The notes below the pieces were generated by a model. That model was not told where the DNA came from. It ran no database searches and saw nothing but the letters and a program-made list of their open reading frames with translations. A DNA stretch of 64,000 bases from Ensifer canadensis (GTDB taxonomy: Bacteria; Pseudomonadota; Alphaproteobacteria; Rhizobiales; Rhizobiaceae): the NCBI RefSeq assembly GCF_017488845.2, contig NZ_CP083370.1, forward strand, positions 2,356,001-2,420,000, in the 5' to 3' direction. Of the stretch, positions 3,211 through 22,384 are shown piece after piece. Each line of letters begins with the position of its first letter. Within the stretch, counting starts at the first letter, position 1. The position numbers and the translations under genes were made by a program.

Positions 3211-3307
3211 GGCACCGGGCGCTTTGACTAGGCTGCCTGTCAATGACGGTGGAGCGCGGGGGCATCAGAGCCTTGGCGGTATCCGACAACAACCGCAGGG
3301 AACAGAC

Positions 3308-4396: not shown

Positions 4397-4467
4397 AATG
4401 TGTTTCCGGCCCGACCCGGCCGCCCCCTGAGCCTTGCATGAACGTCAACGATAAAGGGAACAGCGTC

Positions 4468-5628: not shown

Positions 5629-5648
5629 TTGAAACTTTGACGTGACCG

Positions 5649-5671
5649 CCCCTCATCCTCGCGGTGAGGGG
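5649..5671. promoter_or_regulatory. Hairpin over the permease ribosome site
   Basis: CCCCTCA (5649-5655) pairs with TGAGGGG (5665-5671). The 3' arm contains the GAGGGG that would serve as ribosome site for the ATG at 5677. It may protect the binding-protein mRNA and lower permease translation, which is a common arrangement in importer operons. Confidence 0.4.
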
Positions 5672-5676
5672 CCGAA

Positions 5677-6573
5677 ATGCCAATGAAACTTGACGGATCA
5701 ACTCACATGCCCGCGGCAACGAACACGAAGAGAAACCTGGTGACGGCAGCGCTGGTGGCGCCGGCGGCGGCATGGCTGATGATCTTTCTGGTCCTGCCGT
5801 TCATCGCCATGCTGGTCTTCGCCTTCGGCGAGCGCGCGCCCGAAGGCGGCTATCAGGCGGCGTTCACCTTCGCCCAGTTCGCCAGGCTCCCGACCCGGGC
5901 GGCCGCCTTCTGGAACACGATGGTGCTGGCGCCGGTCGGTGCGCTGCTCTGCCTGCTGGTCGCCTACCCCGTCGCCTATTATCTCGCCGTCAAGGCGGAC
6001 CCGCGGTACCGCCTTATCCTCGTGTCGCTGGTGGTCGTACCCTTCTGGACGAGCCTGCTCGTTCGCACCTATGCCTGGATGTATATCCTCGGCTCGCGCG
6101 GCATTCCGAACCTGCTGTCGATGATCGGCCTTGAGGATGTGCGCCTGCTCAATACGCCGGGCGCCGTGCTGCTCGGCATCGTCTATGGCTACCTGCCGCT
6201 GATGATCATGCCGATCTATGTCAGCCTCGAAAAGCTCGATCGCCGGCTGCTCGAAGCCTCCGCCGATCTCGGCGCGAGACCCGTCTCGACCTTCTTCGGC
6301 GTCACCCTGCCGCTGTCACTGCCGGGCGTGATGACGGGCGTGGCGCTCGTCACCATCCTGCTGCTCGGCGAATACCTGATCCCGCAGCTTCTCGGTGGCG
6401 GCAAGGTGTTCTTCATCGGCAACGCGCTGGTCGATCTCTTCCTGCAATCTCGAAACTGGCCTTTCGGCTCGGCGATCGCCGTGACGCTGGTGGCCGTGGT
6501 CGTGGTCATCCTGATGGTGGCGATGCGCATCGCCTTCAGGGTCGCCGGCACAAGACAGGTGGATCTCGTCTGA
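5677..6573 (+). CDS. Polyamine-type ABC transporter permease (PotB/PotH family)
   Basis: A 298-residue inner-membrane protein with six predicted hydrophobic segments, beginning near residue 22 (TAALVAPAAAWLMIFLVLPF). The cytoplasmic loop LLEASADLGARPVSTFFGVTLP is the EAA motif that contacts the ATPase. It forms a heterodimeric pore with the following permease. The ATG at 5677 has GAGGGG upstream; an ATG at 5707 (MPAATNTKR) is an alternative start. Its stop codon overlaps the next start (TGATG). Confidence 0.9.
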   Translation: MPMKLDGSTHMPAATNTKRNLVTAALVAPAAAWLMIFLVLPFIAMLVFAFGERAPEGGYQAAFTFAQFARLPTRAAAFWNTMVLAPVGALLCLLVAYPVAYYLAVKADPRYRLILVSLVVVPFWTSLLVRTYAWMYILGSRGIPNLLSMIGLEDVRLLNTPGAVLLGIVYGYLPLMIMPIYVSLEKLDRRLLEASADLGARPVSTFFGVTLPLSLPGVMTGVALVTILLLGEYLIPQLLGGGKVFFIGNALVDLFLQSRNWPFGSAIAVTLVAVVVVILMVAMRIAFRVAGTRQVDLV

Positions 6574-7391
6574 TGCGCGCCTTCATCTCCTCGGTCTATA
6601 TCTTCCTCTACGCGCCGATCGCGCTGGTCGTCCTGTTTTCGTTCAATGCCGGCCGCAGCGCCAGCGAGTTCACCGGCTTTTCGACCGCATGGTACGGCAA
6701 GGCGCTCGGCAATACCTTCCTGGTCTCGGCGCTGCAGAACAGCCTGATGATCGCCTTTACCAGCGCCACCCTTGCCGCCATCTTCGGCACCATGGCCGCA
6801 CTCGGCATGGAGCGGCTGGCGCCGCGCAACCGGGCGATCTTCGACGCGCTCTTTGCCGCGGCCATCGTCGTGCCCGGCGTCGTCATCGGCATCGCCACGC
6901 TTGTGGCGCTCGTCGCCGTCTTTTCCTTCGTCAATCCGGCGCTATCCGCCATCTGGCCGGGCGACCAGCCGCCACAGCTCGGGCTCGGCTATGGCTCGAT
7001 CATCGCCGCGCACGGGCTGTTCTCGATGGCGCTCGTTACCATGATCGTGAAAGCTCGCATCGCCAGCCTCGGGCGCGATATCGTCGAGGCATCGAGCGAT
7101 CTCTATGCGACGCCGCTCACCACCTTCCGCCTGATCGTGCTACCGCAGATCCTGCCGTCGATCCTGGCGGGTTTCCTGCTCGCCTTCACCTTCTCCTTCG
7201 ACGATTTCATCATCGCCTTCTTCGTCGCCGGTTCGAAGACGACGCTGCCGATCTACGTCTTCGCTTCGATCCGCCGCGGCGTGACGCCGGAAATCAACGC
7301 GATCGCGACGCTGGTGCTCGTCGCCTCGCTGCTCCTGATCCTGACCGCCCGCATCCTGATGCGGGACAAAAAACCGAAATCCGGGGAGTGA
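6573..7391 (+). CDS. Polyamine-type ABC transporter permease (PotC/PotI family)
   Basis: A 272-residue membrane protein, the second half of the importer pore. It opens with a hydrophobic segment (SSVYIFLYAPIALVVLFSFN) and carries the EAA loop IVEASSDLYATPLTTFRLIVLP and the family signature FTFSFDDFIIAFFVAG. Start and stop of the neighbouring genes overlap, showing translational coupling. Length and motifs are normal for PotC-like permeases. Confidence 0.92.
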   Translation: MRAFISSVYIFLYAPIALVVLFSFNAGRSASEFTGFSTAWYGKALGNTFLVSALQNSLMIAFTSATLAAIFGTMAALGMERLAPRNRAIFDALFAAAIVVPGVVIGIATLVALVAVFSFVNPALSAIWPGDQPPQLGLGYGSIIAAHGLFSMALVTMIVKARIASLGRDIVEASSDLYATPLTTFRLIVLPQILPSILAGFLLAFTFSFDDFIIAFFVAGSKTTLPIYVFASIRRGVTPEINAIATLVLVASLLLILTARILMRDKKPKSGE

Positions 7392-7395: not shown

Positions 7396-8157
7396 ATGAT
7401 CCTGAAAGACCGGGTCGCGATCGTGACCGGAGCGGGCTCCGGGATCGGTCAGGCGGGCGCTGCCATCATGGCGCGCGAGGGTGCGCATGTCGTCGTCGTC
7501 GACCGCAGCCCCGAGGCCGGCAGCCTGACCGTCGACACCATCCGCGCCATGGGCGGCAAGGCCGAGGCCGTCACCCTCGACGTTACCGACGATGCAGCGC
7601 TTGCCGACGGCATCGCCGATATCCTCTATCGCCACGGCCGCATCGATATCCTGCACAATCACGCCGGCGCGCAGGTTGCCGGCGATCTTGAAGAGGTCGA
7701 AGTCTCCGGCTTCGACCGCTCGTGGAACCTCAATGTGCGTGCGCATTTCATGGCCGCCCGCCTGGTCATGCCGTCGATGAAGGCCGCCGGCCGCGGCGTC
7801 ATCGTCAACACCTCGTCATCGTCGGGCGTGCTCTACGACCGCGAGATGATCGCCTACACCACCACCAAGCATGCGGTTATCGCCATGACCAAGCAGATGG
7901 CCGGCGACTACGCCCGCCACGGCATCCGCGTCAACGCGCTCTGCCCCGGTTGGGTCGATACGCCCTTCAACGACCCCTTCATCGCCCAGATGGGCGGTCG
8001 CGGCGCGATCGAGGCCTACATCCGCGAAAAGGTACCGCTCGGCCGCTGGGCAAGCGTCGACGAAATCGCCGAGTCGATCCTGTTCCTGGTGTCCGACCGA
8101 TCGTCCTACATGACCGGCCAAATCCTGGTGGTCGATGGCGGCGAGACGGTGGTGTGA
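7396..8157 (+). CDS. Short-chain dehydrogenase/reductase (SDR) family oxidoreductase
   Basis: A 253-residue classical SDR. The cofactor loop TGAGSGIG lies at residues 11-18, the NHAG motif follows (NNAG equivalent), and the catalytic Tyr154-x3-Lys158 is seen in AYTTTKHA with the active-site serine in NTSSSSGV. An acidic residue after the second strand (VVVVDRSP) suggests NAD(H) rather than NADP(H). GGGGAG lies 7-12 bases before the start, which is 4 bases after the permease stop, so it is probably the last gene of the importer operon and oxidises or reduces the imported compound or a derivative. The substrate is not predictable from sequence. Confidence 0.88.
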   Translation: MILKDRVAIVTGAGSGIGQAGAAIMAREGAHVVVVDRSPEAGSLTVDTIRAMGGKAEAVTLDVTDDAALADGIADILYRHGRIDILHNHAGAQVAGDLEEVEVSGFDRSWNLNVRAHFMAARLVMPSMKAAGRGVIVNTSSSSGVLYDREMIAYTTTKHAVIAMTKQMAGDYARHGIRVNALCPGWVDTPFNDPFIAQMGGRGAIEAYIREKVPLGRWASVDEIAESILFLVSDRSSYMTGQILVVDGGETVV

Positions 8158-9453: not shown

Positions 9454-11115
9454 CTATGTCAGGGCAATGTGCCCGATGCCCTTGGCGGCGATCTCCTCAA
9501 AACTCTCGTCGTAGCCGGCATCGGCGTAGCGGATGACGCCGAGTGCGGTGTCGTTGGTGAGCGCATGGTCGAGCCGCTCGTCGGCAGCTTGCGTGCCGTC
9601 GGCCACCACCGTCACGCCGCAGCTCGTCATGTAGCCGGCATAGCCGCCGCCGCCCGAATGCACGACGACGAGATCCGCCATCGAGGAGCAGAGCAGCATG
9701 GCGTCGAGCAGCGGCCAGTCGGCGATCGCGTCCGATCCGTCCTTCATCCGCTCGGTCATGATGTTGGGATGCGCCATGGCGCCGGCATCGAGGTGGTCGC
9801 GCGAAAAGGCGACTGGTCCCTTCAATTCGCCCGACGCCACCAGTTCGTTGACGCGACGGGCCAGCGCTGTGCGCTCACCATGGCCGAGCCAGGCGATGCG
9901 CGCCGGCAGGCCCTCGAACGGGATGTGCTCGCGTGCAAGCCTGATCCAGTTGGTGACGATCTTGTTGTCCGGGAACATTTCGAGTAGCAGGTCGTCGATG
10001 CGCGCGATGTCGCTCTCCTCGCCGGACAGAGCCATCCAGCGGAAGGGGCCGATGGCGCGGGCAAAGAGTGGGCGCAAATAGGCCTCGGTGAAGATTGGAA
10101 TGTCGAAGGCGTTGGTAACGCCGCCCTCGCGCGCCTGGGTGCGGATGAGGTTGCCGTTGTCGAAGACTTCCGCGCCCTTTTTCTGAAACTCGAGCATCGC
10201 CGTAACATGCTCGACGATCGAGGCGCGGCTTGCGGCCATCAGCTGGCCCTGGCCGTCGTCACGCAGCGATTTCACCTGATCGACCGTCATGCCCTTCGGC
10301 ACGTAGCCGTAGACGAGGTCGTGCGCCGAGGTCTGGTCGGTAACCACGTCGGGCACGATGCCGCGCCGGGCGATTTCCGGGTAGACCTCGGCGGCGTTGC
10401 CGATGAGCCCGACGGAGAGCGCCCGCTTGTCCCGGACCGCCGCATCGATCATCGCAAGTGCCGTATCCAGATCCGGTGCGATCTCCTGGAGGTAGCCGAT
10501 CTCCCGGCGCTTCTTCGCCCGCTCCGGGTCGATATCGACGCAGAGGATGGCGGCGCCCGCCATGCGGCCGGCAAGCGGCTGCGCGCCCCCCATGCCGCCG
10601 AGCCCGGCCGTCAGCACGAAGCGGCCGGAAAGATCGCCGCCGAACCGCCGCTCGGCAATGCGCATGAAGATCTCGTAGGTGCCCTGGATCACCCCCTGGC
10701 TGCCGATATATTGCCAGGCCCCGGCCGTCAGCCCGCCCCAGCAGATCAGCCCCTTGCGTTGCAGCTCGTAGAAGACTTCGGCCTTGGCCCATTGGCCGAC
10801 GATGTTGCAGTTGGCCATGATCACCAGCGGCGCCTTGGCATGGGTCTTGAGCAGCCCGACCGGCTTGCCGGACTGGATGATCAGCGTCTGGTCCTCGTCC
10901 ATCTCGATCAACGTCTTGACGATGGCGCGGTGCGCCGGCCAGTTGCGCGCGGCCTTGCCGAGCGCGGCATAGACGATGAGGTTGTCCGGATCCTCGCCGA
11001 CAGAAAGCACGTTTTCGAGTAGCCGCAGCAAGGCCTCCTGCCGCCAGCCCTTGGCGCGCAGCACCAGTCCGCCGGGGATCGGAAAGTTCGGGTGACGGGG
11101 GTTGGCCTTGGGCAT
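9454..11115 (-). CDS. Urocanase-family protein, probable thiourocanate hydratase
   Basis: A 553-residue member of the urocanate hydratase family, close to the usual length of about 557. The NAD-binding segment GLGGMGGAQPLAG and the conserved blocks QSGKPVG, SQGVIQGTYE, GPFRWMALSG and DWPLLDA are intact. Expected active-site features differ: the position I recall as the conserved Cys in ARICW is Ala408 here (ARIAW), and the usual HHGGG is HSGGGG. With a MIO-less ammonia-lyase homologue, a DUF917 protein, a hydantoinase and a carbamoylase on the same strand, the best reading is hydration of thiourocanate in ergothioneine breakdown. Ordinary urocanase (HutU) is the alternative, but hutI and hutG are absent. 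An AGAGGAA ribosome site precedes the ATG. Confidence 0.82.
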   Translation of the reverse strand: MPKANPRHPNFPIPGGLVLRAKGWRQEALLRLLENVLSVGEDPDNLIVYAALGKAARNWPAHRAIVKTLIEMDEDQTLIIQSGKPVGLLKTHAKAPLVIMANCNIVGQWAKAEVFYELQRKGLICWGGLTAGAWQYIGSQGVIQGTYEIFMRIAERRFGGDLSGRFVLTAGLGGMGGAQPLAGRMAGAAILCVDIDPERAKKRREIGYLQEIAPDLDTALAMIDAAVRDKRALSVGLIGNAAEVYPEIARRGIVPDVVTDQTSAHDLVYGYVPKGMTVDQVKSLRDDGQGQLMAASRASIVEHVTAMLEFQKKGAEVFDNGNLIRTQAREGGVTNAFDIPIFTEAYLRPLFARAIGPFRWMALSGEESDIARIDDLLLEMFPDNKIVTNWIRLAREHIPFEGLPARIAWLGHGERTALARRVNELVASGELKGPVAFSRDHLDAGAMAHPNIMTERMKDGSDAIADWPLLDAMLLCSSMADLVVVHSGGGGYAGYMTSCGVTVVADGTQAADERLDHALTNDTALGVIRYADAGYDESFEEIAAKGIGHIALT

Positions 11116-11426
11116 CGTCTCGTTCCTCTTCGTTGTCGCGAGGCAGCTCGCTGCCCCTCACCCTAACCCTCTCCCCGCAAGGGGAGAGGGGATTGTTCAC
11201 AGCTTGCGGCGAACATCGCGTGCGAAGCCGCTATGGTCCATTGCCCACAGGCCGGGGGCGTAAACGGCTCCCCTGCTCGCTGCCAACGCGCCATCTCATC
11301 ACAATCGTGCCTCTCCCCTTCTCGGCGAGAAGAATAACCACGGCTTGCCGCCCCGGGTCGCAACGACGTCGCCTCTCCCCGCCTACGGGGAGAGGTTAGG
11401 GTGAGGGGCAAAACCACTCTCTGCAT
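11116..11426. other. Gap filled mainly by an inverted-repeat element
   Basis: The 311 bases between the urocanase-like and TfoX genes are mostly the element at 11154-11409. It separates the 3'-most gene from the rest of the cluster, so the urocanase-like gene may depend on read-through or on a promoter hidden here. No gene is visible. Confidence 0.65.
11154..11409. repeat. MITE-like inverted-repeat element (CCCCTCA ends), copy A
   Basis: Left end CCCCTCACCCTAACC with hairpin CCTCTCCCCGCAAGGGGAG; right end is its mirror, CGGGGAGAGG then GGTTAGGGTGAGGGG. The centre is unique. Same architecture as 22442-22587, 46258-46400 and 56754-56908. Confidence 0.75.
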
Positions 11427-11756
11427 TCACTTCGGCGGCAACGTTTCGACGAAGGCAGTCGCCGCATCGATGAGCCGCTTGCGCACGGCGTCGTCGCCAT
11501 AAGCGTCTGCCCCGGCCCGCACCCAGCCATGCATCGCGCGGCCGTTCATCACCATCAGTTCGACATCGGACAGCGCCAGCGCCCAGCCGTCATTGCCCTT
11601 GCCGAGCCGCACCAGCATCGATCCTTCGCGCGCGCCGCAGAGCAGGTTGCCGTTGAGCAGAAACGCCCAGCCGCCGAACATCGCCTTTTCCGACAGCCCC
11701 GGCCGCCCGGCGATCTCGTCCTTGATCAGTTCCTCAAGTCCCGCATCCCGCGCCAT
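11427..11756 (-). CDS. TfoX N-terminal-domain protein
   Basis: A 109-residue protein matching the TfoX/Sxy N-terminal fold (EKAMFGGWAFLLNGNLLCG, then VRLGKGNDGWALAL). It lacks the C-terminal helix-hairpin-helix half of true competence regulators, like many small alphaproteobacterial homologues of unknown role. The ATG at 11756 follows AGAGAGG and is preferred over the upstream start at 11786. It lies 111 bases downstream of the DUF917 gene on the same strand, inside the ergothioneine-type cluster, with no obvious enzymatic role there. Confidence 0.8.
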   Translation of the reverse strand: MARDAGLEELIKDEIAGRPGLSEKAMFGGWAFLLNGNLLCGAREGSMLVRLGKGNDGWALALSDVELMVMNGRAMHGWVRAGADAYGDDAVRKRLIDAATAFVETLPPK

Positions 11757-11867
11757 GACCTCTCTCCCCTGGCGTTTCCTGTGCACACGAAATCTGGAAA
11801 CGCTTTACCTCATTGTTCTCTTGCATTTCCGGACGGAAAACCGCTTCGCGCTTTTCCTGGACATGCT

Positions 11868-12965
11868 CTACGACCGCCCGGCCAGAGCGTAGCGGGCGAG
11901 CTCTATGCCCATCGCCTTTTCGACCGAGGGGTAGACCGTCGGGTCGAGCACGCTGGACGCAAGCGGGATCACCGACTTCGGCACATGCAGCACGAAGATC
12001 GTCATGCCGACCCGCAGTTGGCCGACGCTCAAGGGTTCGCCCTCTGATGACAACGTGGTGATGACGTCAGGGAAGGTGGCAAGCCTCCGGCCTTCCGCAG
12101 AGTCAACCGCCATGTATTCATTCATCACGTGCAATACCGTTGAGTCAGCCCCCTTCCCCAGCGTCACCGTGCCGATGTCGAAGGCCTCCTTGGTGTAGGT
12201 GACCGACTTGTCGGTGATCGTGCCTTCGGCAAGGATCGCGCCATTGGTCGTCTTGACGATCGCATCGATCACCGCGCTGCCGCCCTTGGCTTCCGCCGCG
12301 ATGATCGCCTCGCCGAGCGCCAGCGCCAGCGAGATGCCGCCGAGCGCCGCATTCGCCTTGACGTAGGACGCGCGGACCGGATTGCGGCACGAGGCGATGA
12401 AACCGCCGGACATGTCGGAGGCGGTGCGCAGGATCGGCGAGACCTTGGCGGTCGCGCCGCGGACCACCAGCTCGATATAGCGGTTCTCGTCGCGATTTCC
12501 CCCGACGGCGGTCTGGATCATCTGTTCAGGCGACCCGGCAAGGCCGATCGAGCCCATGTCGCCGGTCGGGTGCGCCCGGATGTCGCCGACCGCATCGACC
12601 ACCTTGGTCCCGAGGATCGCCGATGGCAGCCAGCCATTGAGCGTCGAGGACTTGCCGTTCTGGCCGATGATCAGGCCCGAAAGCTTCTCGCCGAGCGCCT
12701 CCTGCAGCAGTTGCACCGCCTTGACGTAGTCGACGCCGCGCATTTCCCAGGGGGTGGTCGAGGCCGGCGCGCCGATGGCGGCTGCTGTCGCCACCCAGTC
12801 GTCGGCATCAAGCTCGTCGACCGACACCAGTTCCGGTTTGCCGATCGAGACCGCGGCATAGCCGAGCATGCGGCCGTGATCGGCCCAGCCGCCGCCGCCG
12901 GCGGCATAGACGGAGCCGCCCTTGACCGCAGCTTCGACATCCTTCTCCGTCAATATCCGACCCAT
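11868..12965 (-). CDS. DUF917 family protein, probable thiohydantoin desulfurase
   Basis: A 365-residue member of the DUF917 family, whose Pfam domains are now named for S-methyl-thiohydantoin desulfurase. Recognised from the glycine-rich start (VYAAGGGGWADHG), the central LIIGQNGKSSTLNGWL and DVGDIRAHPTGDMG-like blocks (seen as AVGDIRAHPTGDMGSIGL), and GFIASCRNPVRASYV. In this cluster the expected reaction is removal of sulfur from 3-(5-oxo-2-thioxoimidazolidin-4-yl)propionate to give hydantoin propionate and sulfide. The start at 12965 follows AGGAGAAGG, and begins one base beyond the upstream gene's stop, so the two are translationally coupled. The family is certain; the substrate is inferred from neighbours. 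Confidence 0.82.
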   Translation of the reverse strand: MGRILTEKDVEAAVKGGSVYAAGGGGWADHGRMLGYAAVSIGKPELVSVDELDADDWVATAAAIGAPASTTPWEMRGVDYVKAVQLLQEALGEKLSGLIIGQNGKSSTLNGWLPSAILGTKVVDAVGDIRAHPTGDMGSIGLAGSPEQMIQTAVGGNRDENRYIELVVRGATAKVSPILRTASDMSGGFIASCRNPVRASYVKANAALGGISLALALGEAIIAAEAKGGSAVIDAIVKTTNGAILAEGTITDKSVTYTKEAFDIGTVTLGKGADSTVLHVMNEYMAVDSAEGRRLATFPDVITTLSSEGEPLSVGQLRVGMTIFVLHVPKSVIPLASSVLDPTVYPSVEKAMGIELARYALAGRS

Positions 12966-12966
12966 C

Positions 12967-14238
12967 TCAAACCTTCTCCTGCAATTGTTTGTCGAGCCTT
13001 CTGACGGCATCGAAGAGCACGGCAGTGCCTAGCGCGATATCGTCGTTCTCCGCCCACTCGTCCGGGGCGTGCGAACGACCGCCCCGGCACGGAATGAAGA
13101 TCATCGCCGAGCGGGTGATGCGCCCCATCCACGCGGTGTCATGCCCGGCTCCGGAGGCCATGCGCCGGTGGCGGGCACCGATCTGGCCGCAGCTTTCCTC
13201 CAGCGTCGAAAGCAGCAGCGGATCGCCGGGTGTGGGATGATTGTCGGAGATAACATTGGCGGGCGCGATGGTCACGCCGGCCTCACCGGCAACGCGCGCG
13301 GCAAGCGCGCCCAGTTCGACGATGAATTTCTCCATCTGCGGCTGCAGTTCGGCACGTGCATCGATCAGCAACCGCGCCCGCGACGGCACGACATTGGCGG
13401 CGTTCGGTTCGATCGAGAACTCGCCGACGGTCGCGGTGAAGTGTCCCTCGCCCTTGGAGAATTCGGTTGCCAGCGCCTCGATTGCCAGCACCAGCCGGGA
13501 GGCTGCGACAAGCGCATCGCGCCGGTGGTCCATCGGTGTCGTGCCGGCATGGTCGGCCTGCCCTTCGACGATGATCTCGATGCGGGTGATGCCGGAGATC
13601 GCTGTGACGACGCCGATATCCAGGCGCCCGGTCTCCAGCACCGGCCCCTGCTCGATATGCAGTTCCAGAAAGGCCTTGATGTCGGAACGCTTGAGCGCTG
13701 GCAGCCGCGACGGATCGCCGCCAACTTCGACGATGCCCTGCCGCAGGCTCAGTTCGCCCTGCACCCGGCTCAGCCAGCCATCCGGCAGGATGCCGGCCAT
13801 GCCGCGGCTGCCGACGCAGGAAACGCCGAAGATCGACACTTCCTCGGCAAGGAAATCGACGATCTCCAGGTCGTGATCGAGTTCGATGCCGCCGTCGGAA
13901 AGCGCGCGCGCCACTTCAAGTGCCGCGGCGACGCCGGCAATGCCGTCGAAGCGACCGCCCTCCGGCACCGTGTCGGAGTGGGAACCAAGCATCAGCGTTC
14001 CGAGCGCGGACTTTCGCCCCTTGCGCCGGCCGATGAGATTGCCGGCCGCATCGATGCGCGTCTCCAGCCCCGCCGCACGAAAGCGGCGATCGAGGAAGGC
14101 GCGGCCCTCCAGAAACAGCGGCGTGAAAGCCCGGCGGGTATAGGGCCGATCCGGCTCCGTGATCCCCGCAAGCCCGTTGACGATGCCGGCGATCCGGCTG
14201 GCATCCACCGGCAGATTGGTCTTGATGCTCGTGCTCAT
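12967..14238 (-). CDS. M20-type Zn hydrolase, probable N-carbamoyl-L-glutamate amidohydrolase
   Basis: A 423-residue amidase of the M20 family subgroup that includes N-carbamoyl-L-amino-acid hydrolase (HyuC), allantoate amidohydrolase and beta-ureidopropionase. Metal ligands are visible: His87 and Asp98 in GSHSDTVPEGGRFDG, Glu132/Glu133 in LAEEVSIFG, His194 in ELHIEQGPVLE, and the late His in GGRSHAPDEW. The dimerisation lid motif GQADHAGTTPM is present. In this cluster it would release L-glutamate, CO2 and ammonia from N-carbamoylglutamate. The ATG follows GCAGGAGG; it overlaps the hydantoinase gene by 4 bases (ATGA) and is coupled to the DUF917 gene. Confidence 0.88.
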   Translation of the reverse strand: MSTSIKTNLPVDASRIAGIVNGLAGITEPDRPYTRRAFTPLFLEGRAFLDRRFRAAGLETRIDAAGNLIGRRKGRKSALGTLMLGSHSDTVPEGGRFDGIAGVAAALEVARALSDGGIELDHDLEIVDFLAEEVSIFGVSCVGSRGMAGILPDGWLSRVQGELSLRQGIVEVGGDPSRLPALKRSDIKAFLELHIEQGPVLETGRLDIGVVTAISGITRIEIIVEGQADHAGTTPMDHRRDALVAASRLVLAIEALATEFSKGEGHFTATVGEFSIEPNAANVVPSRARLLIDARAELQPQMEKFIVELGALAARVAGEAGVTIAPANVISDNHPTPGDPLLLSTLEESCGQIGARHRRMASGAGHDTAWMGRITRSAMIFIPCRGGRSHAPDEWAENDDIALGTAVLFDAVRRLDKQLQEKV

Positions 14239-15614
14239 CGGGCCTCCTGCAAAGGCAAAGTCTGCAGCGGGCGAACGAAGGCGCCGGTGCCAGGCTTGGC
14301 GACGACGGCGCGCCCGTCAAAGGCAAGCGACCCGCGCAGATAGGTGGCAGACACCCGCCAGGGCAGCCTGATGCCGTTATAGGGCGACCAGCCGACGACG
14401 TTGTGACCGCTTGTCGCCGCATCATAGGTATAGGGCTCGGGCGTCATGACGATGATATCGGCGTCCTTGCCGGCCTCCAGCGCGCCCTTCTGGTGGTCGA
14501 GCCGGAAATGCCGCGCCGGGTTCAGCGTCATCAGCTCGGCCGCCCGCGTCAGCGGGATGCCGCGCTCAAGCGCGCCCTTGACGAACAGCGGCACCATGAC
14601 CTCCAGACCCGGCACGCCGGAGGCATTGGCGAGCATGTCCGGATTGGTCTTGCGATCCTCCGACCAGCTGACATGGTCGGTCGAAACCATCGTCACCGTG
14701 CCATCGGCCACATGCCGCCATAGCTTTTCCACCTCGGCACGCGGGCGGATCGGCGGATTGATCTTCGCCTTGCCGCCAAGCCGGCGAACGTCGTTCTCCT
14801 CGTCGAGCGTCAGATAATGGATGCAGCATTCGATCGTCGCCGCGTGGCCCTGGCGCCGGTAGGCGTCGGCAATCTCGTAGCCGCGCCCGAGCGAGCAGTG
14901 GACCACATGCGCCGGGCATCCGGTCGAAGCACCCGTTTCGTAGATCTGGTTGGTCGCCAAGAGCTCGGTGAGCGGCGGACGGGAAAGGCCATGGGCGCGA
15001 TAATCGGTGATCCCAGCGGCCCTGACCTTTTCGATCGCGCCGCGCACCGCCTCGTCGTCCTCGTTGTGCACCCCGGCTGTAAGCCCCGTCGGCGCGATCG
15101 CGCGAAAGCAATCCTCGAGCAGCGCTGCGGGAATGCGCGGAAAGCGCTTGGGGTCGGTGCCGAAGGTGGAGAACTTGAAGGCGGCAACGCCGGCCTCGAC
15201 CATTTCGAGGATGCGGGCCGGCCCCTCCTCGGGGTCGACCGTGCCGTAGAGGGCGAAGTCGACCCGCGCCTGCGGGCTCGCATGGGCGACCTTGCGCCCA
15301 ACGGCCTCCGCCGAGCAGACGAGATTGCCTTCGTCATAGGGCATGTCGACGATCGTGGTCACACCGCCGGCCGCGGCCGAGCGCGTCGACCAGACGAAAT
15401 CCTCCTGGTTCTTCTGCGACAGCGAATGCACCTGCGCGTCTATGGCGCCGGGAAGGATCATTGCGCGTCCGAGATCGTGGCGTTCACGGGCAGCCGGTGC
15501 CACCCCCTGCCCGACATGCACGACCTTGCCATCGCGCACGGCCACATGTCCGCCTTCGACGATCCGGTGCGGGAGAACGATGGTGCCTTTCAGGACAAGA
15601 TCGAAATCGGACAT
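14235..15614 (-). CDS. Hydantoinase/allantoinase-type amidohydrolase, probable hydantoin-5-propionate hydrolase
   Basis: A 459-residue cyclic amidohydrolase. It has the carboxylated lysine (Lys147 in AFKFSTFG), metal histidines His183 (GVHNEDD) and His239 (AHVVHCSLG), and the catalytic Asp313 (STDHVSW). The first metal motif, normally HxH after the second strand, is Gln61-Val-His63 (DAQVHS), so one expected metal ligand is replaced. The family opens cyclic ureides; beside a carbamoylase and a DUF917 desulfurase the natural substrate is hydantoin-5-propionate, giving N-carbamoylglutamate. A GGAGAG site precedes the ATG; the gene begins 42 bases after the lyase gene. Allantoinase or dihydropyrimidinase activity is the alternative. 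Confidence 0.85.
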   Translation of the reverse strand: MSDFDLVLKGTIVLPHRIVEGGHVAVRDGKVVHVGQGVAPAARERHDLGRAMILPGAIDAQVHSLSQKNQEDFVWSTRSAAAGGVTTIVDMPYDEGNLVCSAEAVGRKVAHASPQARVDFALYGTVDPEEGPARILEMVEAGVAAFKFSTFGTDPKRFPRIPAALLEDCFRAIAPTGLTAGVHNEDDEAVRGAIEKVRAAGITDYRAHGLSRPPLTELLATNQIYETGASTGCPAHVVHCSLGRGYEIADAYRRQGHAATIECCIHYLTLDEENDVRRLGGKAKINPPIRPRAEVEKLWRHVADGTVTMVSTDHVSWSEDRKTNPDMLANASGVPGLEVMVPLFVKGALERGIPLTRAAELMTLNPARHFRLDHQKGALEAGKDADIIVMTPEPYTYDAATSGHNVVGWSPYNGIRLPWRVSATYLRGSLAFDGRAVVAKPGTGAFVRPLQTLPLQEAR

Positions 15615-15656
15615 CGTGTTCTCTCCATCGGATCAGCCTTGTTGGATCAGCCTGGA

Positions 15657-17195
15657 TCACTTGCTCAGCGCAAAGAAGTCGTCGAACTCCGGCATCGGCG
15701 CCATGGTGACGAAGGTGCGCAGCAGGTCATGGCAGGTAAACGCGCCTTGCAACGCCTCGATTTCCTTCGATAGCGGCCGGTCCTTCAGATAGATCGGGCT
15801 GATCGAGCGGGTGCGCTCATGCGCGAGCTTGACGATGCCGTGTGGCGCATCGCCGACAAGATCGATCGCCTGCGACGACAGGATCGCCTCGATCGCCGCC
15901 AACTGCCGCAGATCGCGCACCTGGGTTTCCATGCGCTCGACGATCAAAGGCAGGAAGGTCGCCTCTTCCTCCAACCCGCCGGCAACGACGATCGACTGGG
16001 CCGAAAGCGGCACCGCCATCGACTGCACGCGCATGTAGAGCTCGACCGCAAGCTTCATCAGCGGGCCGAGGCCGGTGGCGATTTCGCCCGGCGCCACCAG
16101 ATTGACCGGCAGGTTGCGGCGCCCGCCGTTCGACAGAAGGATGCAACGGTTGAGCACGTTGCGCGCCACATGGGAAAACGCGATTTGCGCCGTTTCGACA
16201 TAGAGCGTCGTGGTCAAGGGCAGCGAAGCACCCGAGGCATGCACCTGGCCGCCGAGCACCACCGGATTGTCGTCGGAAAGATAGGTCGCCTCGACCAGAC
16301 GGCCGGCGGCAACCAGCAGCGTATCGACAACGGCGCCGAACACCTGTGCGGTCATGCGCAGGCTCAATGGGTCATGGATCGCCGTCGGCAAGGGCCAGTC
16401 GGAAACGCCCGATTGGCCGTAGAGCCAGGAGCCGACCAGCGCCTCGCCCCGCGTCGACAGCGTCGCGGCCACCCGCCACGGATCAGCCGAAGCGCCAAGC
16501 GCCTGCGACGACATCACGCCGGTCACCAGCAGCACGCGGATGGCCGCTGCCGCCTCGCGCAGCACGTCGGCGGCCGCCGAATAGGCAATCGCATTGACGC
16601 TGAGTGCCGCAAGCGCGTCGCGCGGCCGCATCACCAAAGGCGTCAGCCCGGCATCGGCAAGCGCCGTTTCGGCCGGAACCAGCCGGCCGCGATGATAGGC
16701 TTCGCCGACCCCGGTCAGAACGGCCGCGATCTGCCCCATCAGGCCGATATCGGCGCAGCCCATCGAGCCGTGCCGACGCACTGCCGGGATGATGTCGTGC
16801 TCGATGAGTGCGAGGAAGGCGTGGATCAGCTCGGGGCTGCATCCGGTATGCCCGCGCATCGCGGTGTTGCAGCGAATGGCGATGGCCTTGCGCACGATCG
16901 GCACCGCAAAAAATTCGCCGGTGCCGAAATGATGGGCACGCACCAAGGAGGTATTGAACTCCGCCAGATCGTCCGCCGTCCAGAGCCGGTCCTTCATCGA
17001 GCCGACGCCGGTGTTGGACCCGTAGACCGGCAGGCCGAGCGCGATGCGATCGGCGATCACCTTGTGGGCAGCCGCCACCCGCTCCATGCCGCCCTCGTCC
17101 GCGACCGGTCGCGCCGCACCCGAGCCGATTTCCTCGAGCGTCGCGAAGTCGAGCGGTTTTCCGCAGAGAACGATGGACTTGACCTGTTGCAGCAT
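15657..17195 (-). CDS. MIO-less histidine ammonia-lyase homologue, probable ergothionase
   Basis: A 512-residue member of the HAL/PAL superfamily, normal length for HAL. The active-site tyrosine loop is kept (Tyr58 in VYGSNTGVG), as are the substrate-contact block RAHHFGTGEF and the helical-core SSQAIDLVG. The cofactor-forming triad, Ala-Ser-Gly in GSVGASGDL of true HAL, reads Cys147-Ala148-Asp149 here (GSMGCADIG), so the MIO electrophile cannot form. That is the reported hallmark of ergothionase, which eliminates trimethylamine from ergothioneine to give thiourocanate and does not need MIO because the leaving group is quaternary. It is the first gene of the minus-strand cluster and divergent from a LysR regulator. 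Hercynine or another trimethylated amino acid is the alternative substrate. Confidence 0.85.
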   Translation of the reverse strand: MLQQVKSIVLCGKPLDFATLEEIGSGAARPVADEGGMERVAAAHKVIADRIALGLPVYGSNTGVGSMKDRLWTADDLAEFNTSLVRAHHFGTGEFFAVPIVRKAIAIRCNTAMRGHTGCSPELIHAFLALIEHDIIPAVRRHGSMGCADIGLMGQIAAVLTGVGEAYHRGRLVPAETALADAGLTPLVMRPRDALAALSVNAIAYSAAADVLREAAAAIRVLLVTGVMSSQALGASADPWRVAATLSTRGEALVGSWLYGQSGVSDWPLPTAIHDPLSLRMTAQVFGAVVDTLLVAAGRLVEATYLSDDNPVVLGGQVHASGASLPLTTTLYVETAQIAFSHVARNVLNRCILLSNGGRRNLPVNLVAPGEIATGLGPLMKLAVELYMRVQSMAVPLSAQSIVVAGGLEEEATFLPLIVERMETQVRDLRQLAAIEAILSSQAIDLVGDAPHGIVKLAHERTRSISPIYLKDRPLSKEIEALQGAFTCHDLLRTFVTMAPMPEFDDFFALSK

Positions 17196-17333
17196 GCCTC
17201 GAGAACCTTACCACGCGATCCGCCTCGACGCCGAAACGATGCGTGGATGCAAAGACTTGATGCGATCCCGCCTCTATGGGCGAGGGATCGTCTGCCAGCA
17301 TGCTATGCGTTTTGTTCGCTCTCGTGATATATC

Positions 17334-17367
17334 CCAAATCCGGAACGGCCGATGCCAAATTCTGAAC
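17334..17367. promoter_or_regulatory. Paired 13-bp direct repeats, candidate LysR operator
   Basis: CCAAATCCGGAAC at 17334-17346 and CCAAATTCTGAAC at 17355-17367 match at 11 of 13 positions and start 21 bp apart, two helical turns. They lie between the divergent lyase gene and the LysR gene whose product has two helix-turn-helix domains. Confidence 0.5.
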
Positions 17368-17404
17368 ATGGTGGCACCGACGATGCCGGCGGAGAACTTA
17401 CGCA

Positions 17405-18601
17405 ATGGATATCGCCACGATCCTGCTCGTCGAGGCCGTCATGCGCGAAGGCGGCATAAGGCGCGCCGCCACCTTGAGCAGCCGTGCGCCGTCGAGCGTC
17501 AGCGCCGCCGTTCGCCGCTTCGAACAGGCCGTTTCGATCCCGCTTTTCCGTCGCGACGGCGGCCTCGTGGCCCTAACGCTGGAGGCCCGTGCACGCCAGG
17601 CCGATGTGACCGAAGCAAGCGCCACAATCCGGGCGCTGCTGACTACGGCTAGCGGCGAACCACCGACTGCGATCCCGCCTGTCGGCCTCGTCGCCCTCGA
17701 CCGTTTCGTCCGGATCGCCCGGGCCGGCAGCATCCGGGCGGCCGCCCGCACCCTCGGCCTTGGCCAGCCGCAACTGACACGGCAGATCGCCGACCTCGAA
17801 CGTCATCTGCAATGCCGGCTGCTCGGGCGGTCCCATGGCGGCATCGTCTGCACCCCGACAGCCCTCGGCATCATCCCTGAAGTCGAACGCCTGCTCGACA
17901 TCTGGGCGCGGCTGACGCGCGCTTCGGCCGACCGGTTCCGCCGCGACGTCACCACCTGGCGCCTCGGCGCGGTCATGCCGCTCGGGCCGGAAAGCGAGAT
18001 TGCCCGCATGCTGGCGGCGCTGACGGCCACTTGGCACCGCTCCCGCCCGCGGCAATCGCTGTTCATCTCCAGCACCACCGCCGACGAGCTTCTCGCCGGT
18101 CTCAAGAGCCGGCGCTTCGACGCCGCCCTGCTCGATATCGCCGGCATTCCACCAGATTTCGACGGCCGTCTCGTGTCCGAAACCGCACTGGTGCTCGCCG
18201 GTCCGGCACCGGCCCTTTCGGAAATGGGCGGCGATCTCCCCCGGCTGCTCGCCACCTGCCCGATCGCCGTTCCGAGCGTGCGAAGCGGCCTGCGCCGGGA
18301 GGTCACCCGCTTTCTCGATGACACGCTCACGGAGCATGAGCACCGCCGCGTGACACTGGTCGAGGTCGATTCCATCCCCGTCATCATCAACCTGGTCAGC
18401 CACCATGGCTATCTCTCGGTGCTGCCGGAAACCTCGCTGTCGCGGGTCCAGCGCCCACCCGCCATGATCCGGCTAGGGCCGCTCTACCGCCAGTCGCTGA
18501 CGCTCATCTGGCCGCGCGGCGCCTTTTCCAGCGAGGTCGGCGACCTGATGATCGGCATGATGAAGACGGGTCCGCAGGCAGCGACAGCCTCGCCAGCGTA
18601 A
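17405..18601 (+). CDS. LysR-type regulator with two tandem DNA-binding domains
   Basis: A 398-residue protein, about 90-100 residues longer than usual LysR regulators. The surplus is a second complete LysR-type helix-turn-helix: the first spans residues 1-62 (GGIRRAATLSSRAPSSVSAA, LFRRDGGLVALT) and the second about residues 95-155 (GSIRAAARTLGLGQPQLTRQ, LLGRSHGGIVCTPTALG). An effector-binding domain of normal length follows (about 175-390). It is divergent from the ergothionase-type gene with 209 bases between and is the likely regulator of that cluster, perhaps sensing ergothioneine or thiourocanate. Codon use and composition are like its neighbours, so the double domain does not look like a frame error. 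Confidence 0.88.
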   Translation: MDIATILLVEAVMREGGIRRAATLSSRAPSSVSAAVRRFEQAVSIPLFRRDGGLVALTLEARARQADVTEASATIRALLTTASGEPPTAIPPVGLVALDRFVRIARAGSIRAAARTLGLGQPQLTRQIADLERHLQCRLLGRSHGGIVCTPTALGIIPEVERLLDIWARLTRASADRFRRDVTTWRLGAVMPLGPESEIARMLAALTATWHRSRPRQSLFISSTTADELLAGLKSRRFDAALLDIAGIPPDFDGRLVSETALVLAGPAPALSEMGGDLPRLLATCPIAVPSVRSGLRREVTRFLDDTLTEHEHRRVTLVEVDSIPVIINLVSHHGYLSVLPETSLSRVQRPPAMIRLGPLYRQSLTLIWPRGAFSSEVGDLMIGMMKTGPQAATASPA

Positions 18602-18730: not shown

Positions 18731-18836
18731 TAAAGCGCGTCGCGATCTTTCGGATTCGCTTGCTGCGCTTTAAGCTCTTGTTTTTTCGCATGTCGTCATC
18801 GCAAAACCGCTGAACACTTTTGCGCGACGTGCCTTA
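18731..18836. repeat. Rhizobial intergenic repeat (TAAAGCGC...GCGCGAC type), minus-oriented copy
   Basis: A hairpin part (TAAAGCGCGTCGCGATC...GCTGCGCTTTAA) is joined to a second part reading GCAAAACCGCTGAACAC then TTTTGCGCGACGTGC. It is the reverse complement of the element at 32885-32992. The stop codon of the GlxA-type regulator gene lies at its edge. Confidence 0.75.
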
Positions 18837-19871
18837 GGGATGTCCAGTCGCCTTGGCCTTGCCGATCGCACCCTCCGGCGAACGGCCGCGATCCTCGGCT
18901 CCATGGCCAAGCTTCAGCCGACGACGCGTCTCGCTCGGGCTCTCGCGGTAATGGGCGCGGTAGCTGCGCGAGAAGGATGATGACGAATTGAAGCCGGTGA
19001 TCGCGGCGATGTCGGCAAATTCCATGCGCGTCTCGATCACCTTACGCCGCGCCGCATTAAGGCGCAGCGCCAGGTAATGTTCGTGCGGCCCCACCCCCAT
19101 CGTGTCGCGAAACAGGTCCCGCAGGTGCCGGGCACCGACGCCGATGCGGCGGGCGAGCCGCGCGAGCGTCAAAGGCGCCTCAACCGTTTCCTCCATCAGC
19201 TTGACCGCGGCGCCGACACGGGGGTCGAGGATGCGCATGTTGCCGATCGCCGGCATCTGCAGGAGGTCGCCGCGGGTGCGCTCCTGTTCGTAGATGAACA
19301 GGCGCGACACTTCGAGCGCCAGCGAATAGCCGTGCGCCCGGCGGATCAGCTCCAGCATCAGGTCGAGCGTCGGCAGGGAGCCGCCGGTGGTGATGCGCTT
19401 GCCGTCGATGACGAACCGTTCGCGCACCATCGTCACCTGCGGATAGGTGGCGGTAAAATCCTCGAAATCCTCCCAGTGGGTGGTGGCTTTGGAATTGTCG
19501 AGCAAGCTGGTTTCGGCAAGCAGCCAGGAGCCGGATTCGATGCCCGCCATCAGCTCGCGATGGCGCGCCGTCTGCGACAGCATCATCTTCAGCTGCGAGG
19601 TGGCGCTCCGCTGCCAATTGTAGCTCGACAGGATGAAGAGCGGCGCCGTTTCGCGCTGTGGTCGGAAAGCGCCTGCAACCGGAATGGGGATGCCGCTCTT
19701 GGTTTCGATCGGCTCGCCGTCAGGGCTGTAGAGCGTCCAGCTGTAGAGCGGCCGGCCGGCGATGCGGTTGGCAGCGCGCATCGGCTCGATCACCGAGGCA
19801 ACGAGGATCAGGTTGGTCTCCGGCAACACCAGGATGTCGGCGTGCTGCACCTGCGAAACGCTCTGATCCAT
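18834..19871 (-). CDS. GlxA-family AraC-type regulator, probable carnitine-catabolism regulator (CdhR-like)
   Basis: A 345-residue regulator with an N-terminal DJ-1/PfpI-like domain (residues about 12-180, HADILVLPETNLILVAS, GIESGSWLLAE) and a C-terminal AraC-type double helix-turn-helix (LTLARLARRIGVGARHLRDLF, FADIAAITGFNSSSSFSRSY). This domain pair defines the GlxA family, which includes the carnitine regulator CdhR and betaine regulator GbdR of Pseudomonas. It is divergent from the BKACE and carnitine dehydrogenase genes. GGAGAAG precedes the ATG at 19871; a TTG two codons earlier is possible. It probably activates the divergent operon in response to carnitine or a breakdown product. Confidence 0.87.
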   Translation of the reverse strand: MDQSVSQVQHADILVLPETNLILVASVIEPMRAANRIAGRPLYSWTLYSPDGEPIETKSGIPIPVAGAFRPQRETAPLFILSSYNWQRSATSQLKMMLSQTARHRELMAGIESGSWLLAETSLLDNSKATTHWEDFEDFTATYPQVTMVRERFVIDGKRITTGGSLPTLDLMLELIRRAHGYSLALEVSRLFIYEQERTRGDLLQMPAIGNMRILDPRVGAAVKLMEETVEAPLTLARLARRIGVGARHLRDLFRDTMGVGPHEHYLALRLNAARRKVIETRMEFADIAAITGFNSSSSFSRSYRAHYRESPSETRRRLKLGHGAEDRGRSPEGAIGKAKATGHP

Positions 19872-19894
19872 TCGCAAACTTCTCCTTATCGTTG

Positions 19895-19924: not shown

Positions 19925-19979
19925 AAAAGCAGAGCCGCCGTTCTTGGCTCGTAATGGCTTTAATAAAAGGGAGACTGCA

Positions 19980-20882
19980 ATGCCGCTCAGCATGAACCGC
20001 GAGGTATTCATCACCTGTGCCGTCACCGGCGCCGGAGACACCGTTTCAAAGTCCAGCCACGTTCCGATCACGCCAAAGCAGATTGCCGATGCGGCGATTG
20101 AAGCCGCCAAGGCGGGTGCTGCCGTGGCCCACTGCCACGTCCGCGATCCGGACACCGGCGCCCCTGCCCGCAGGCTCGATCTCTACCGCGAAGTCACCGA
20201 CCGCATCCGCTCCGCCGATGTCGATGTCGTGCTCAACCTGACAGCCGGCATGGGCGGGGACCTGGTTTTCGGCAATGTCGAAAGCCCGTTCCCGGTCAAC
20301 GAAAAAGGCACCGACATGGCCGGCGCCACCGAGCGCGTTGCCCATGTCGCCGACTGCCTGCCGGAAATCTGCACGCTCGACTGCGGCACCATGAACTTCT
20401 CGCTCGGCGACTATGTCATGACCAACACGCCGTCGATGCTGCGCGAAATGGCGCGGCAGATGACGGCGCTCGGTGTCCGCCCCGAGATCGAGGCCTTCGA
20501 CACCGGCCACCTCTGGTTCGCCAAGCAGCTCGCCGAGGAAGGGCTGATCGAGGATCCGGTGCTGATCCAGCTCTGCATGGGCATTCCGTGGGGGGCGCCT
20601 GATGACCTCAACACCTTCATGGCCATGGTCAACAACGTGCCGGATAACTGGACCTTCTCTGCCTTCTCAATCGGCCGGAACGCGCTTGCCTACCCGGCAG
20701 CAGCAGTCCTTGCCGGCGGCAACGTCCGCGTCGGCCTCGAAGACAATCTCTATATCGGCAAGGGCCAGCTCGCGACCAACGGTCAGCTCGTCGAAAAGGC
20801 AGTCGGCCTCATCGAGGGCATGGGTGCCAAGATCATCGGGCCGGATGAGGTCCGCAAGAAACTGAAGCTGACGAAGCGCTGA
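19980..20882 (+). CDS. BKACE family protein, probable 3-dehydrocarnitine cleavage enzyme
   Basis: A 300-residue beta-keto acid cleavage enzyme. Family features are the start REVFITCAVTGAGD, the zinc-site motif AHCHVRDPDTG, LNLTAGMGGD, and the conserved Glu region RPEIEAFDTGHLWF. BKACE enzymes condense a beta-keto acid with acetyl-CoA; those beside carnitine dehydrogenase convert 3-dehydrocarnitine to betainyl-CoA and acetoacetate. The next gene, 11 bases downstream, is exactly such a dehydrogenase with a thioesterase domain. GGGAG precedes the ATG at 19980; an in-frame start at 19944 lacks one. Confidence 0.9.
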   Translation: MPLSMNREVFITCAVTGAGDTVSKSSHVPITPKQIADAAIEAAKAGAAVAHCHVRDPDTGAPARRLDLYREVTDRIRSADVDVVLNLTAGMGGDLVFGNVESPFPVNEKGTDMAGATERVAHVADCLPEICTLDCGTMNFSLGDYVMTNTPSMLREMARQMTALGVRPEIEAFDTGHLWFAKQLAEEGLIEDPVLIQLCMGIPWGAPDDLNTFMAMVNNVPDNWTFSAFSIGRNALAYPAAAVLAGGNVRVGLEDNLYIGKGQLATNGQLVEKAVGLIEGMGAKIIGPDEVRKKLKLTKR

Positions 20883-20893: not shown

Positions 20894-22384
20894 ATGAGCC
20901 TTATAACGAAAGCAGCCTGCGTCGGTGGCGGCGTCATCGGCGGCGCCTGGGTAGCGCGGTTTGCGCTTGCCGGCATCGATGTGAAGATCTTCGACCCGCA
21001 TCCGGAGGCAGAACGCATCATCGGCGAAGTCATGGCCAATGCCGAGCGCGCCTATGCGATGCTGACCATGGCGCCGCTGCCGCCGAAGGGAAAACTCACC
21101 TTCTGCAAAAGCATCGAGGAAACGGTCAAGGACGCTGATTGGATTCAGGAAAGCGTGCCCGAGCGGCTGGAGCTGAAGCGCGGCGTCATCACTCAGATCG
21201 ATGCCGCCGCAAGACCTGACGCGCTGATCGGCTCCTCCACTTCGGGGCTGCTACCATCCGACCTGCAGGCCGAGATGAAGCACCCCGAGCGCATGTTCGT
21301 GGCGCACCCGTATAACCCCGTCTACCTGCTGCCGCTCGTCGAACTCGTCGGCGGCAAGAAGACGTCGAAGGCGACCATCGAGCGCGCCATGCAGGGCGTC
21401 GAACAGATCGGCATGAAGGGCGTCGTCATTGCCAAGGAGATCGAGGCCTTCGTCGGCGACCGTCTGCTGGAAGCGCTCTGGCGCGAGGCGCTGTGGCTGA
21501 TCCAGGATGACATCTGCGATACCGAGACGCTCGACAATGTCATGCGTTACTCCTTCGGCATGCGCTGGGCGCAGATGGGTCTGTTCGAGACCTACCGCAT
21601 CGCCGGCGGCGAAGCCGGCATGCGCCACTTCCTTGCCCAGTTCGGCCCCTGCCTGAAATGGCCCTGGACCAAGTTCACCGATGTCGTCGATCTCGACGAT
21701 GCGCTGGTGGAGAAGATCGGTGCACAGTCGGACGCGCAGGCCGCCGGCCGCTCGATCCGCGAGCTCGAGCGCATCCGCGACGAAAACCTCGTCGGCATCA
21801 TGCATGCGCTGAAATCGGGCAATGGCGGCGAAGGCTGGGGCGCCGGCAAGCTGCTTGCCGACTTCGAGGCGAAGCTCTGGGCCAACGCCAAGAAGCCTGA
21901 AGCCGATCTCGGCGACGTCAAGCCGCTGCACATTCTCGACACCAAGGTCAGCGCCGCCTGGGTCGACTATAACGGCCACATGACCGAGCACCGCTATCTC
22001 CAGGTGTTCGGCGATACCTCCGACGGCCTGCTGCGCCTGATCGGCGTCGACCTCGACTATGTCCGCGACGGCCACAGCTACTACACGGTCGAGACCCATA
22101 TCCGGAACCTCGGCGAGGCCAAGCTCGGCGATGCGCTCTATTCGACCTGCCAGCTTCTGTCGTCGGACGAGAAGCGCCTGCATCTCTTCTCGACGATCTA
22201 CAATGCCGAAACGAAGGAAGCCATCGCAACCGCCGAGCAGATGATGCTGCACGTCGACAGCAAGGCCGGCAAATCGGTCGCTGCCCCAGCCAAGGTCCTG
22301 GACAAGCTGAAGGCGATCACCGAGGCCCACGCCGGCCTGCCGACGCCCGAAGGTGCCGGACGGTTCGTCGGCCAGAAGCGCTAA
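20894..22384 (+). CDS. Fused L-carnitine dehydrogenase-thioesterase
   Basis: A 496-residue bifunctional protein. Residues 1-190 are a 3-hydroxyacyl-CoA-dehydrogenase-type NAD domain (CVGGGVIGGAWVARFALAG, HPYNPVYLLPLVELVGG), residues about 190-320 the helical domain, and residues from about 345 a hot-dog thioesterase (WVDYNGHMTEHRYLQVF). The first part oxidises L-carnitine to 3-dehydrocarnitine; the second would hydrolyse the betainyl-CoA made by BKACE, giving glycine betaine. Fusions of this type are known in Rhizobiaceae; stand-alone carnitine dehydrogenases stop near residue 320. Glycine betaine can then be used by the demethylation genes at 55-62 kb. Confidence 0.9.
   Translation: MSLITKAACVGGGVIGGAWVARFALAGIDVKIFDPHPEAERIIGEVMANAERAYAMLTMAPLPPKGKLTFCKSIEETVKDADWIQESVPERLELKRGVITQIDAAARPDALIGSSTSGLLPSDLQAEMKHPERMFVAHPYNPVYLLPLVELVGGKKTSKATIERAMQGVEQIGMKGVVIAKEIEAFVGDRLLEALWREALWLIQDDICDTETLDNVMRYSFGMRWAQMGLFETYRIAGGEAGMRHFLAQFGPCLKWPWTKFTDVVDLDDALVEKIGAQSDAQAAGRSIRELERIRDENLVGIMHALKSGNGGEGWGAGKLLADFEAKLWANAKKPEADLGDVKPLHILDTKVSAAWVDYNGHMTEHRYLQVFGDTSDGLLRLIGVDLDYVRDGHSYYTVETHIRNLGEAKLGDALYSTCQLLSSDEKRLHLFSTIYNAETKEAIATAEQMMLHVDSKAGKSVAAPAKVLDKLKAITEAHAGLPTPEGAGRFVGQKR

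Follow-up and report, generated by a model that had tools for sequence, protein, structure and literature searches.

The stretch of DNA considered here (the window: 64,000 nucleotides of the Ensifer canadensis contig NZ_CP083370.1, forward-strand positions 2,356,001 to 2,420,000) harbors a row of five minus-strand genes with a likely role in the catabolism of ergothioneine. The first of them (15657..17195; 512 aa) encodes a lyase devoid of the 4-methylidene-imidazole-5-one (MIO) triad, proposed to be a cytoplasmic ergothionase, referred to below as type A, which would split ergothioneine into thiourocanate and trimethylamine. It is followed by the genes of ErtD, a hydantoin-5-propionate amidohydrolase (14235..15614; 459 aa; NF058538), ErtE, an N-carbamyl-L-glutamate amidohydrolase (12967..14238; 423 aa; NF058540), thiohydantoin desulfurase (THD, the former DUF917; 11868..12965; 365 aa; NF058529), and thiourocanate hydratase (TUH; 9454..11115; 553 aa; NF058530). 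All five open reading frames (ORFs) proved to be open at these coordinates, as reported in a preliminary description of this DNA; the start of THD was taken at MGRIL.. as in its relatives, the mechanical ORF beginning earlier, at 13010. The tight spacing of four of the genes, also reported there, was seen again: 42 bp lie between the lyase and ErtD gene (14235), ErtD and ErtE overlap by 4 bp, and ErtE is followed by THD after a 1-bp gap. TUH is separated from THD by 752 bp containing a minus-strand ORF for a TfoX_N-domain protein (11427..11786; PF04993), which is kept in 18/22 loci of clade 1, i.e., the window's own branch. On the other flank of the row, a divergent gene (17405..18601, plus strand) encodes a LysR-type regulator with two N-terminal HTH_1 stretches and a LysR_substrate domain; a proposed operator, GTTCCGGATTTGGGATAT (17329..17346, minus strand), was located by motif comparison in the intergenic region between the lyase and the regulator.

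The grouping of these genes goes beyond chance, since all of the other 15 genus loci mapped have the five ert genes in one group and the order lyase-ErtD-ErtE-THD-(TfoX)-TUH is repeated in many other Rhizobiaceae loci; a chance or artefactual assembly was rejected on account of the same gene set in 16/16 genus genomes. THD exceeded its cut-off in 16/16 genomes of the genus and in 26/199 genomes of the wider family, and TUH in 6/398 genomes drawn from the phylum, each of these counts including the window's own genome. The locus sample was obtained by a THD-alignment scan of genomes, in which at least 320 of the 595 stretches taken encoded relatives and the best 80 were kept; together with 38 further stretches and 10 of 19 plasmid records, these gave 128 mapped loci. 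Removal of identical THDs left 121 loci, of which 103 extend for 7.5 kb or more to either side (hereafter, full-flank loci). The sample was selected by THD and is weighted to Rhizobiaceae and Burkholderiales, and the locus counts given below do not represent independent events, since the rows are related.

Judged by curated cut-offs, the lower four enzymes are a thiourocanate hydratase, a thiohydantoin desulfurase, ErtD, and ErtE. TUH scored 1061 bits (cut-off 930) and THD 607 bits (cut-off 440) with their NCBIfam equivalog models, and ErtD and ErtE reached 794 bits (cut-off 600) and 599 bits (cut-off 520), respectively. A variant of the pathway consuming S-methyl-ergothioneine by the same logic, with methanethiol leaving instead of sulfide, appears very unlikely: although THD and TUH share superfamilies with the S-methyl enzymes and match their models (288 and 744 bits), both stay under the S-methyl cut-offs (450 and 880) and exceed the non-methyl ones. 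The closest PDB match of TUH is 7ned, titled “Thiourocanate hydratase from Paenibacillus sp. Soil724D2” (826 bits), which outscores the S-methyl entries 8q9u (581 bits) and 8q9v. The structure prediction for TUH was poor (pLDDT 64) and served solely for reading PDB titles.

An ordinary route of histidine, hydantoin, or purine use is even harder to reconcile with the locus and is regarded as extremely improbable. It draws on the relatedness of the proteins to HutH, HutU, allantoinase, and allantoate amidohydrolase and on TUH passing the cut-off of the broader hutU model (699 bits, cut-off 375). The latter score counts against a dedicated ergothioneine pathway, and so does that of the “Zn-dependent hydrolase” model NF009531, which outscores the ErtE model on ErtE (690, cut-off 486, vs. 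599 bits). Still, ErtD and ErtE pass the ert-specific cut-offs, ErtD remains under that of the allantoinase model TIGR03178 (275 vs. 358 bits), and the lyase lacks the MIO triad. A search of the own genome (8.09 Mb, 6 contigs) located a complete hut operon elsewhere, with hutI, hutH, hutG, and hutU clustered on contig C2 (L139), each over its cut-off. The preliminary description, which considered histidine use unlikely, was right about the loss of the MIO triad and about HutI and HutG lying outside the cluster, but not about their absence, as both are encoded in the genome. Overall, the S-methyl, hut, and allantoin readings were rejected by the model cut-offs and by the separate hut operon.

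The lyase carries the motif GSMGCADIG (aligned as GSMGCA-DIG) in place of GSVGASGD of the MIO enzymes, so the Ala-Ser-Gly triad is lost. Its nearest PDB relative, both by sequence and by fold, is the ergothionase of Treponema denticola (6s7j). Four positions distinguish this lineage and the type B lyases, the other type met in ert loci, from 13 rows carrying ASGD, which served as the MIO comparison set: N81 (17/18 type A, 16/16 type B), S199 (17/18 and 15/16), D308 (18/18 and 15/16), and K381 (18/18 and 15/16) were encountered in 0/13 MIO enzymes each. In a 58-row tree, in which T. denticola is the sole row recognised as a tested ergothionase, type A appeared as the sister of the clade comprising this enzyme, not within it (support 99/97); L221 and L223 were assigned to type B following the first tree. 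A convergent origin of type A was considered as well: a 40-row tree with few outgroups left it undecided, and a single MIO-less origin is preferred, since types A and B share one side of a branch in the 58-row tree (99/97). The window lyase is 29–30% identical to the type B rows L091, L098, and L106 and reads GCADIG where most type B lyases read G[EQK][AG]DI; its closest relative with a named source, 97% identical, comes from Ensifer sp. HO-A22.

Several observations weaken the assignment of the lyase as an ergothionase. It shares only 25% identity with 6s7j. In the fold search, histidine ammonia-lyase (HAL; Z 39.1) came close behind ergothionase (Z 41.0), and the stem branch of type A in the 58-row tree is long (1.14). 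Loss of MIO alone is no proof of an ergothionase, since PF00221 includes several MIO-less subfamilies; the other MIO-less PF00221 rows (n = 11) also possess K381 (in 4) and L277 (in 8), and residue K68 occurs in 3/13 MIO enzymes. The four lyases scanned (window, L093, L099, L106) matched no NCBIfam ergothionase model. By the shared site residues and the tree, the window lyase is probably an ergothionase, with ergothioneine as its presumed substrate, on a distant branch apparently without a tested member.

Alternatively, the true substrate of the lyase could be a different betaine, such as hercynine, ergothioneine sulfonate, or some other trimethylammonium compound, leaving the lower four genes to use thiourocanate of another origin. 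The lyase is indeed separable from the lower genes, since these occur without a nearby lyase in 18/103 loci; type A is distant from the tested enzymes, and a bacterial pathway for ergothioneine sulfonate has been reported (Yan 2022). Against this option, which is deemed very unlikely, TUH is present in 56/56 full-flank type A loci, the row in the window opens with the lyase gene, and the replacements in the lyase site agree with the clade of the known ergothionase.

A few lyases of related lineages were met along the way. In Sinorhizobium meliloti pSymA (L223), a gene annotated as hutH (3929-5569) groups with the type B ergothionases and is located near an annotated dimethylsulfoniopropionate (DMSP) lyase. 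MIO-less lyases with the motif GSIGAAD, near or beside genes of the ornithine cyclodeaminase family, form a separate MIO-less branch (L222, L224), and one ert locus of Comamonas testosteroni (L166) contains two type B lyase genes.

Based on this evidence, the locus very probably specifies the whole route from ergothioneine to L-glutamate in the cytoplasm, under LysR control. The five pathway roles put forward in the preliminary description were thereby corroborated, four by the curated cut-offs and that of the lyase by its lack of MIO and its position as sister to the ergothionase clade. Here, the enzyme families, the conservation of the operon, and the motif come from the sequence, and the chemistry from what is established for the named families; what we infer beyond them is the lyase substrate, the flux, the importer, the binding of LysR, and the inducer. 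In the proposed scheme, ergothioneine, being a betaine, would enter the cell intact via an ABC importer, and the MIO-less lyase would take off trimethylamine to give thiourocanate. TUH, with NAD+ as the cofactor, would hydrate the latter to thiohydantoin propionate, in which THD would swap sulfur for oxygen with the release of sulfide. Eventually, ErtD would open the hydantoin ring, and ErtE would strip the carbamoyl group, leaving glutamate and setting free CO2 and ammonia. Control of the operon would be exerted by the divergent tandem-HTH LysR acting at GTTC-N6-TGGGATAT, with ergothioneine or thiourocanate as the probable inducer. The substrate is probably acquired from outside the cell, since egtD was found in 0/16 genus genomes, a weak negative, as 0/14 control genomes passed the cut-off either.

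The regulator is 398 aa long, and its relatives from L098 and L099 likewise possess two HTH_1 domains. In the gap between the lyase and LysR genes, aligned by anchoring at a fixed residue, as the ORF starts differ, the motif is kept and the remainder is poorly conserved outside the genus. The generalised motif, GTWY-N6-TGGGATAT (exact pattern GTWYNNNNNNTGGGATAT), was found in the ert promoter of 43/121 loci, vs. 0 matches of the reversed control in all 121; another five loci carry it beyond the promoter span. Matches in the promoter were recorded for 30/38 loci with LysR nearby, a figure which is partly circular, because the pattern was written from LysR-locus sites (selected by TTTGGGATAT, a single mismatch being allowed) and just the GT ten bases upstream was unselected. 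The matches in 13/83 loci without LysR nearby are independent of the pattern writing, and all of them come from the A2-type loci (Rhizobium and the like), of which this set contains 26. The LysR loci missed are L093, L094, L097, L098, L104, L105, L118, and L122, with the pattern present outside the span in L104, L118, and L122. In the own genome, the pattern matched twice (the window site and C1:15842) and the reversed control once. The regulator seems to have a conserved DNA site of its own, to which it may bind as predicted, and this site may mark little beyond the ert promoter in the own genome, the last point being a part of the joint reading of locus designs discussed below.

The full-flank loci fall into 56 with a type A lyase, 29 with a type B lyase, and 18 without a nearby lyase. 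As called by a simple N-terminal rule of our own, not a trained predictor, a signal peptide is present in 0/56 type A vs. 26/29 type B loci; the window lyase has none. The exceptions of type B comprise L165, which begins without a signal peptide, L168, whose hydrophobic stretch was rejected by the rule, and L169, which is incomplete. A gene of the MFS family like those of L091, L098, and L106 occurs in the stretch of 27/29 type B and 0/56 type A loci, beside the lyase in L091 and L098 and downstream of TUH in L106. It is missing from two type B loci, L165 (which also lacks the signal peptide) and L187, which shows the least convincing signal-peptide call and, in place of MFS, an OsmF-type betaine ABC transporter. 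Seven type A loci have OsmF-type genes as well, L109 and L200 among them apparently representing one contig; in L183 (Martelella), an OsmF/OpuAC-type betaine ABC transporter is situated within the operon, between the lyase and ErtD, a point in favour of the ergothioneine reading. Other oddities of type A include an MFS gene of another kind near L190 and a TRAP gene in one locus.

Within the 18 lyase-less loci, TUH was found in 17, a UbiD-family gene in 10, MFS in 8, TRAP in 4, and an amino-acid ABC transporter in 3. The UbiD-family decarboxylase genes lie in L094, L108, L110, L157, L159, L164, L167, L185 (only 29% alike), L186, and L199; such genes are also present in L112, L207, and L211, as well as in L179 together with a MIO-type lyase. 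Thiourocanate is an alpha,beta-unsaturated acid. A search for a lyase in five whole genomes, made with a 16-row query of which one row was in a wrong frame, gave the canonical ASGD HutH as the sole match in each. In the mapping, four of these genomes counted as lyase-less (G557, G475, G458 with ca. 5 kb on one side, and G289); the fifth, G555, shares its genus with G475 and was outside the mapped set.

One may suggest from these distributions that Proteobacteria feature three spatial designs of ergothioneine catabolism. In the first, represented by the window, the betaine would be imported intact and cleaved in the cytoplasm by the type A ergothionase lineage. In the second, a type B lyase would be exported to cut the betaine beyond the inner membrane, with a dedicated MFS carrier to bring in thiourocanate. 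In the third, the cell would have no lyase and use thiourocanate from its neighbours, often with the aid of a UbiD-family decarboxylase. Combined with a tandem-HTH LysR reading GTWY-N6-TGGGATAT at the type A promoter, this picture is given about an even chance of being correct; it is plausible that the split in lyase, compartment, and transport reflects a wider pattern. Cross-feeding of thiourocanate has been reported among gut bacteria (Zhou 2025, as summarised in PMC13405746).

On the far side of TUH, convergent to the ert operon, there are genes resembling PotA-PotD-PotB-PotC of an ABC transporter (3224..7391, plus strand; family models), a candidate importer kept in 19/22 clade-1 loci, followed by a gene for an SDR oxidoreductase (7396..8157, plus strand; family scan and locus map). 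The sole subfamily cut-off passed by the Pot-type genes was that of the polyamine ATPase (363 vs. 356). Two points weaken the case for ergothioneine import by this system: the binding protein is nearest in PDB to the polyamine-type binding proteins, and the genome-wide search with the operator pattern gave no site near the Pot genes. Accordingly, the Pot-type transporter was not accepted as a proven importer, its binding protein being polyamine-like and the pattern hits being confined to the window site and C1:15842. A gene for an S-adenosylmethionine-dependent methyltransferase (8454-9272, minus strand) comes after TUH on the same strand and is present in 10/22 clade-1 loci; that it might serve sulfide disposal is a pure guess.

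Beyond the LysR gene, the ert row is adjoined by carnitine genes. These include an AraC-type regulator (18834..19877, minus strand), kept in 20/22 clade-1 loci, with GbdR as its best model below the cut-off (212 vs. 480), a BKACE-family enzyme (19944..20882, plus strand), also below its cut-off (236 vs. 382), and carnitine 3-dehydrogenase (20894..22384, plus strand; 915 bits, cut-off 592). The carnitine genes are a conserved neighbour outside the pathway; the carnitine and ergothioneine genes make up a conserved island for two betaines.

Two further clusters deserve mention. L095 (Microvirga ossetica) combines THD, ErtD, and ErtE in the absence of TUH and lyase genes, with a flavin reductase, a racemase, and a dihydropyrimidinase close by, possibly a route for other thiohydantoins. 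In L278 (Agrobacterium tumefaciens Ach5 pAt), the span 9878-20945 covers DUF917, GST, a Zn hydrolase, a urocanate hydratase, a molybdopterin S/N-oxide reductase, and an amidohydrolase, and then glycine-betaine ABC genes; this related cluster may be a variant for oxidised or S-methyl ergothioneine.

Since fungi and some bacteria make ergothioneine and plants and animals take it up, soil bacteria destroying it may set the amount available. The loci make several points amenable to testing: the compartment of the lyase, the feeding of lyase-less species with thiourocanate, and the signal of the tandem-HTH regulator.

The five-step bacterial catabolism of ergothioneine to glutamate was reportedly established by Beliaeva, Leisinger and Seebeck in 2021. 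The suggestion of the preliminary description that this kind of locus may be undescribed does not hold, as the pathway has been published and four of its steps are already named in NCBIfam. The window locus, as far as sequence tells, is the published pathway in an Ensifer genome, since four curated cut-offs were passed and the MIO-less lyase is sister to the ergothionase clade. A search of the open-access literature, outside which most of the subscription papers including the main ones lie, yielded no rhizobial ergothioneine operon, periplasmic ergothionase, or ert LysR, and likewise no type A lyase, compartment split, or LysR with its site. PMC13405746 records ergothionases of several bacteria, among them T. 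denticola, Burkholderia, and Agrobacterium radiobacter (citing Yan 2022). According to the same paper, BLAST with the Burkholderia enzyme gave just HAL/PAL/TAL similarities, the authors placing ergothionase in few genera with the caution that divergent homologues may exist. Type A looks like such a divergent homologue.

Compared with the known five-step pathway (Beliaeva et al. 2021; Paenibacillus TUH, 7ned), the window presents the same five enzyme classes and the same expected product, glutamate. In contrast to it, the window operon is Gram-negative, its lyase and the solved ergothionase are on separate branches, the operon is accompanied by a tandem-HTH LysR with a likely site, and ABC transporter and carnitine genes adjoin. 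The window lyase resembles the T. denticola ergothionase (6s7j) and the lyases of type B (Burkholderiales, Serratia, and others) in the PF00221 fold, the loss of MIO, and N81/S199/D308/K381; unlike the type B lyases of the ert loci, mostly equipped with a signal peptide, it lacks one. The S-methyl branch (hydratase 8q9u, Variovorax) employs a homologous hydratase and desulfurase, but the window proteins stay under the S-methyl cut-offs. Finally, HutH and HutU of the hut pathway, encoded by a separate operon in the same genome, are related to the window lyase and hydratase, whereas the lower half of the window pathway consists of a desulfurase and enzymes of the hydantoinase and carbamoylase types.

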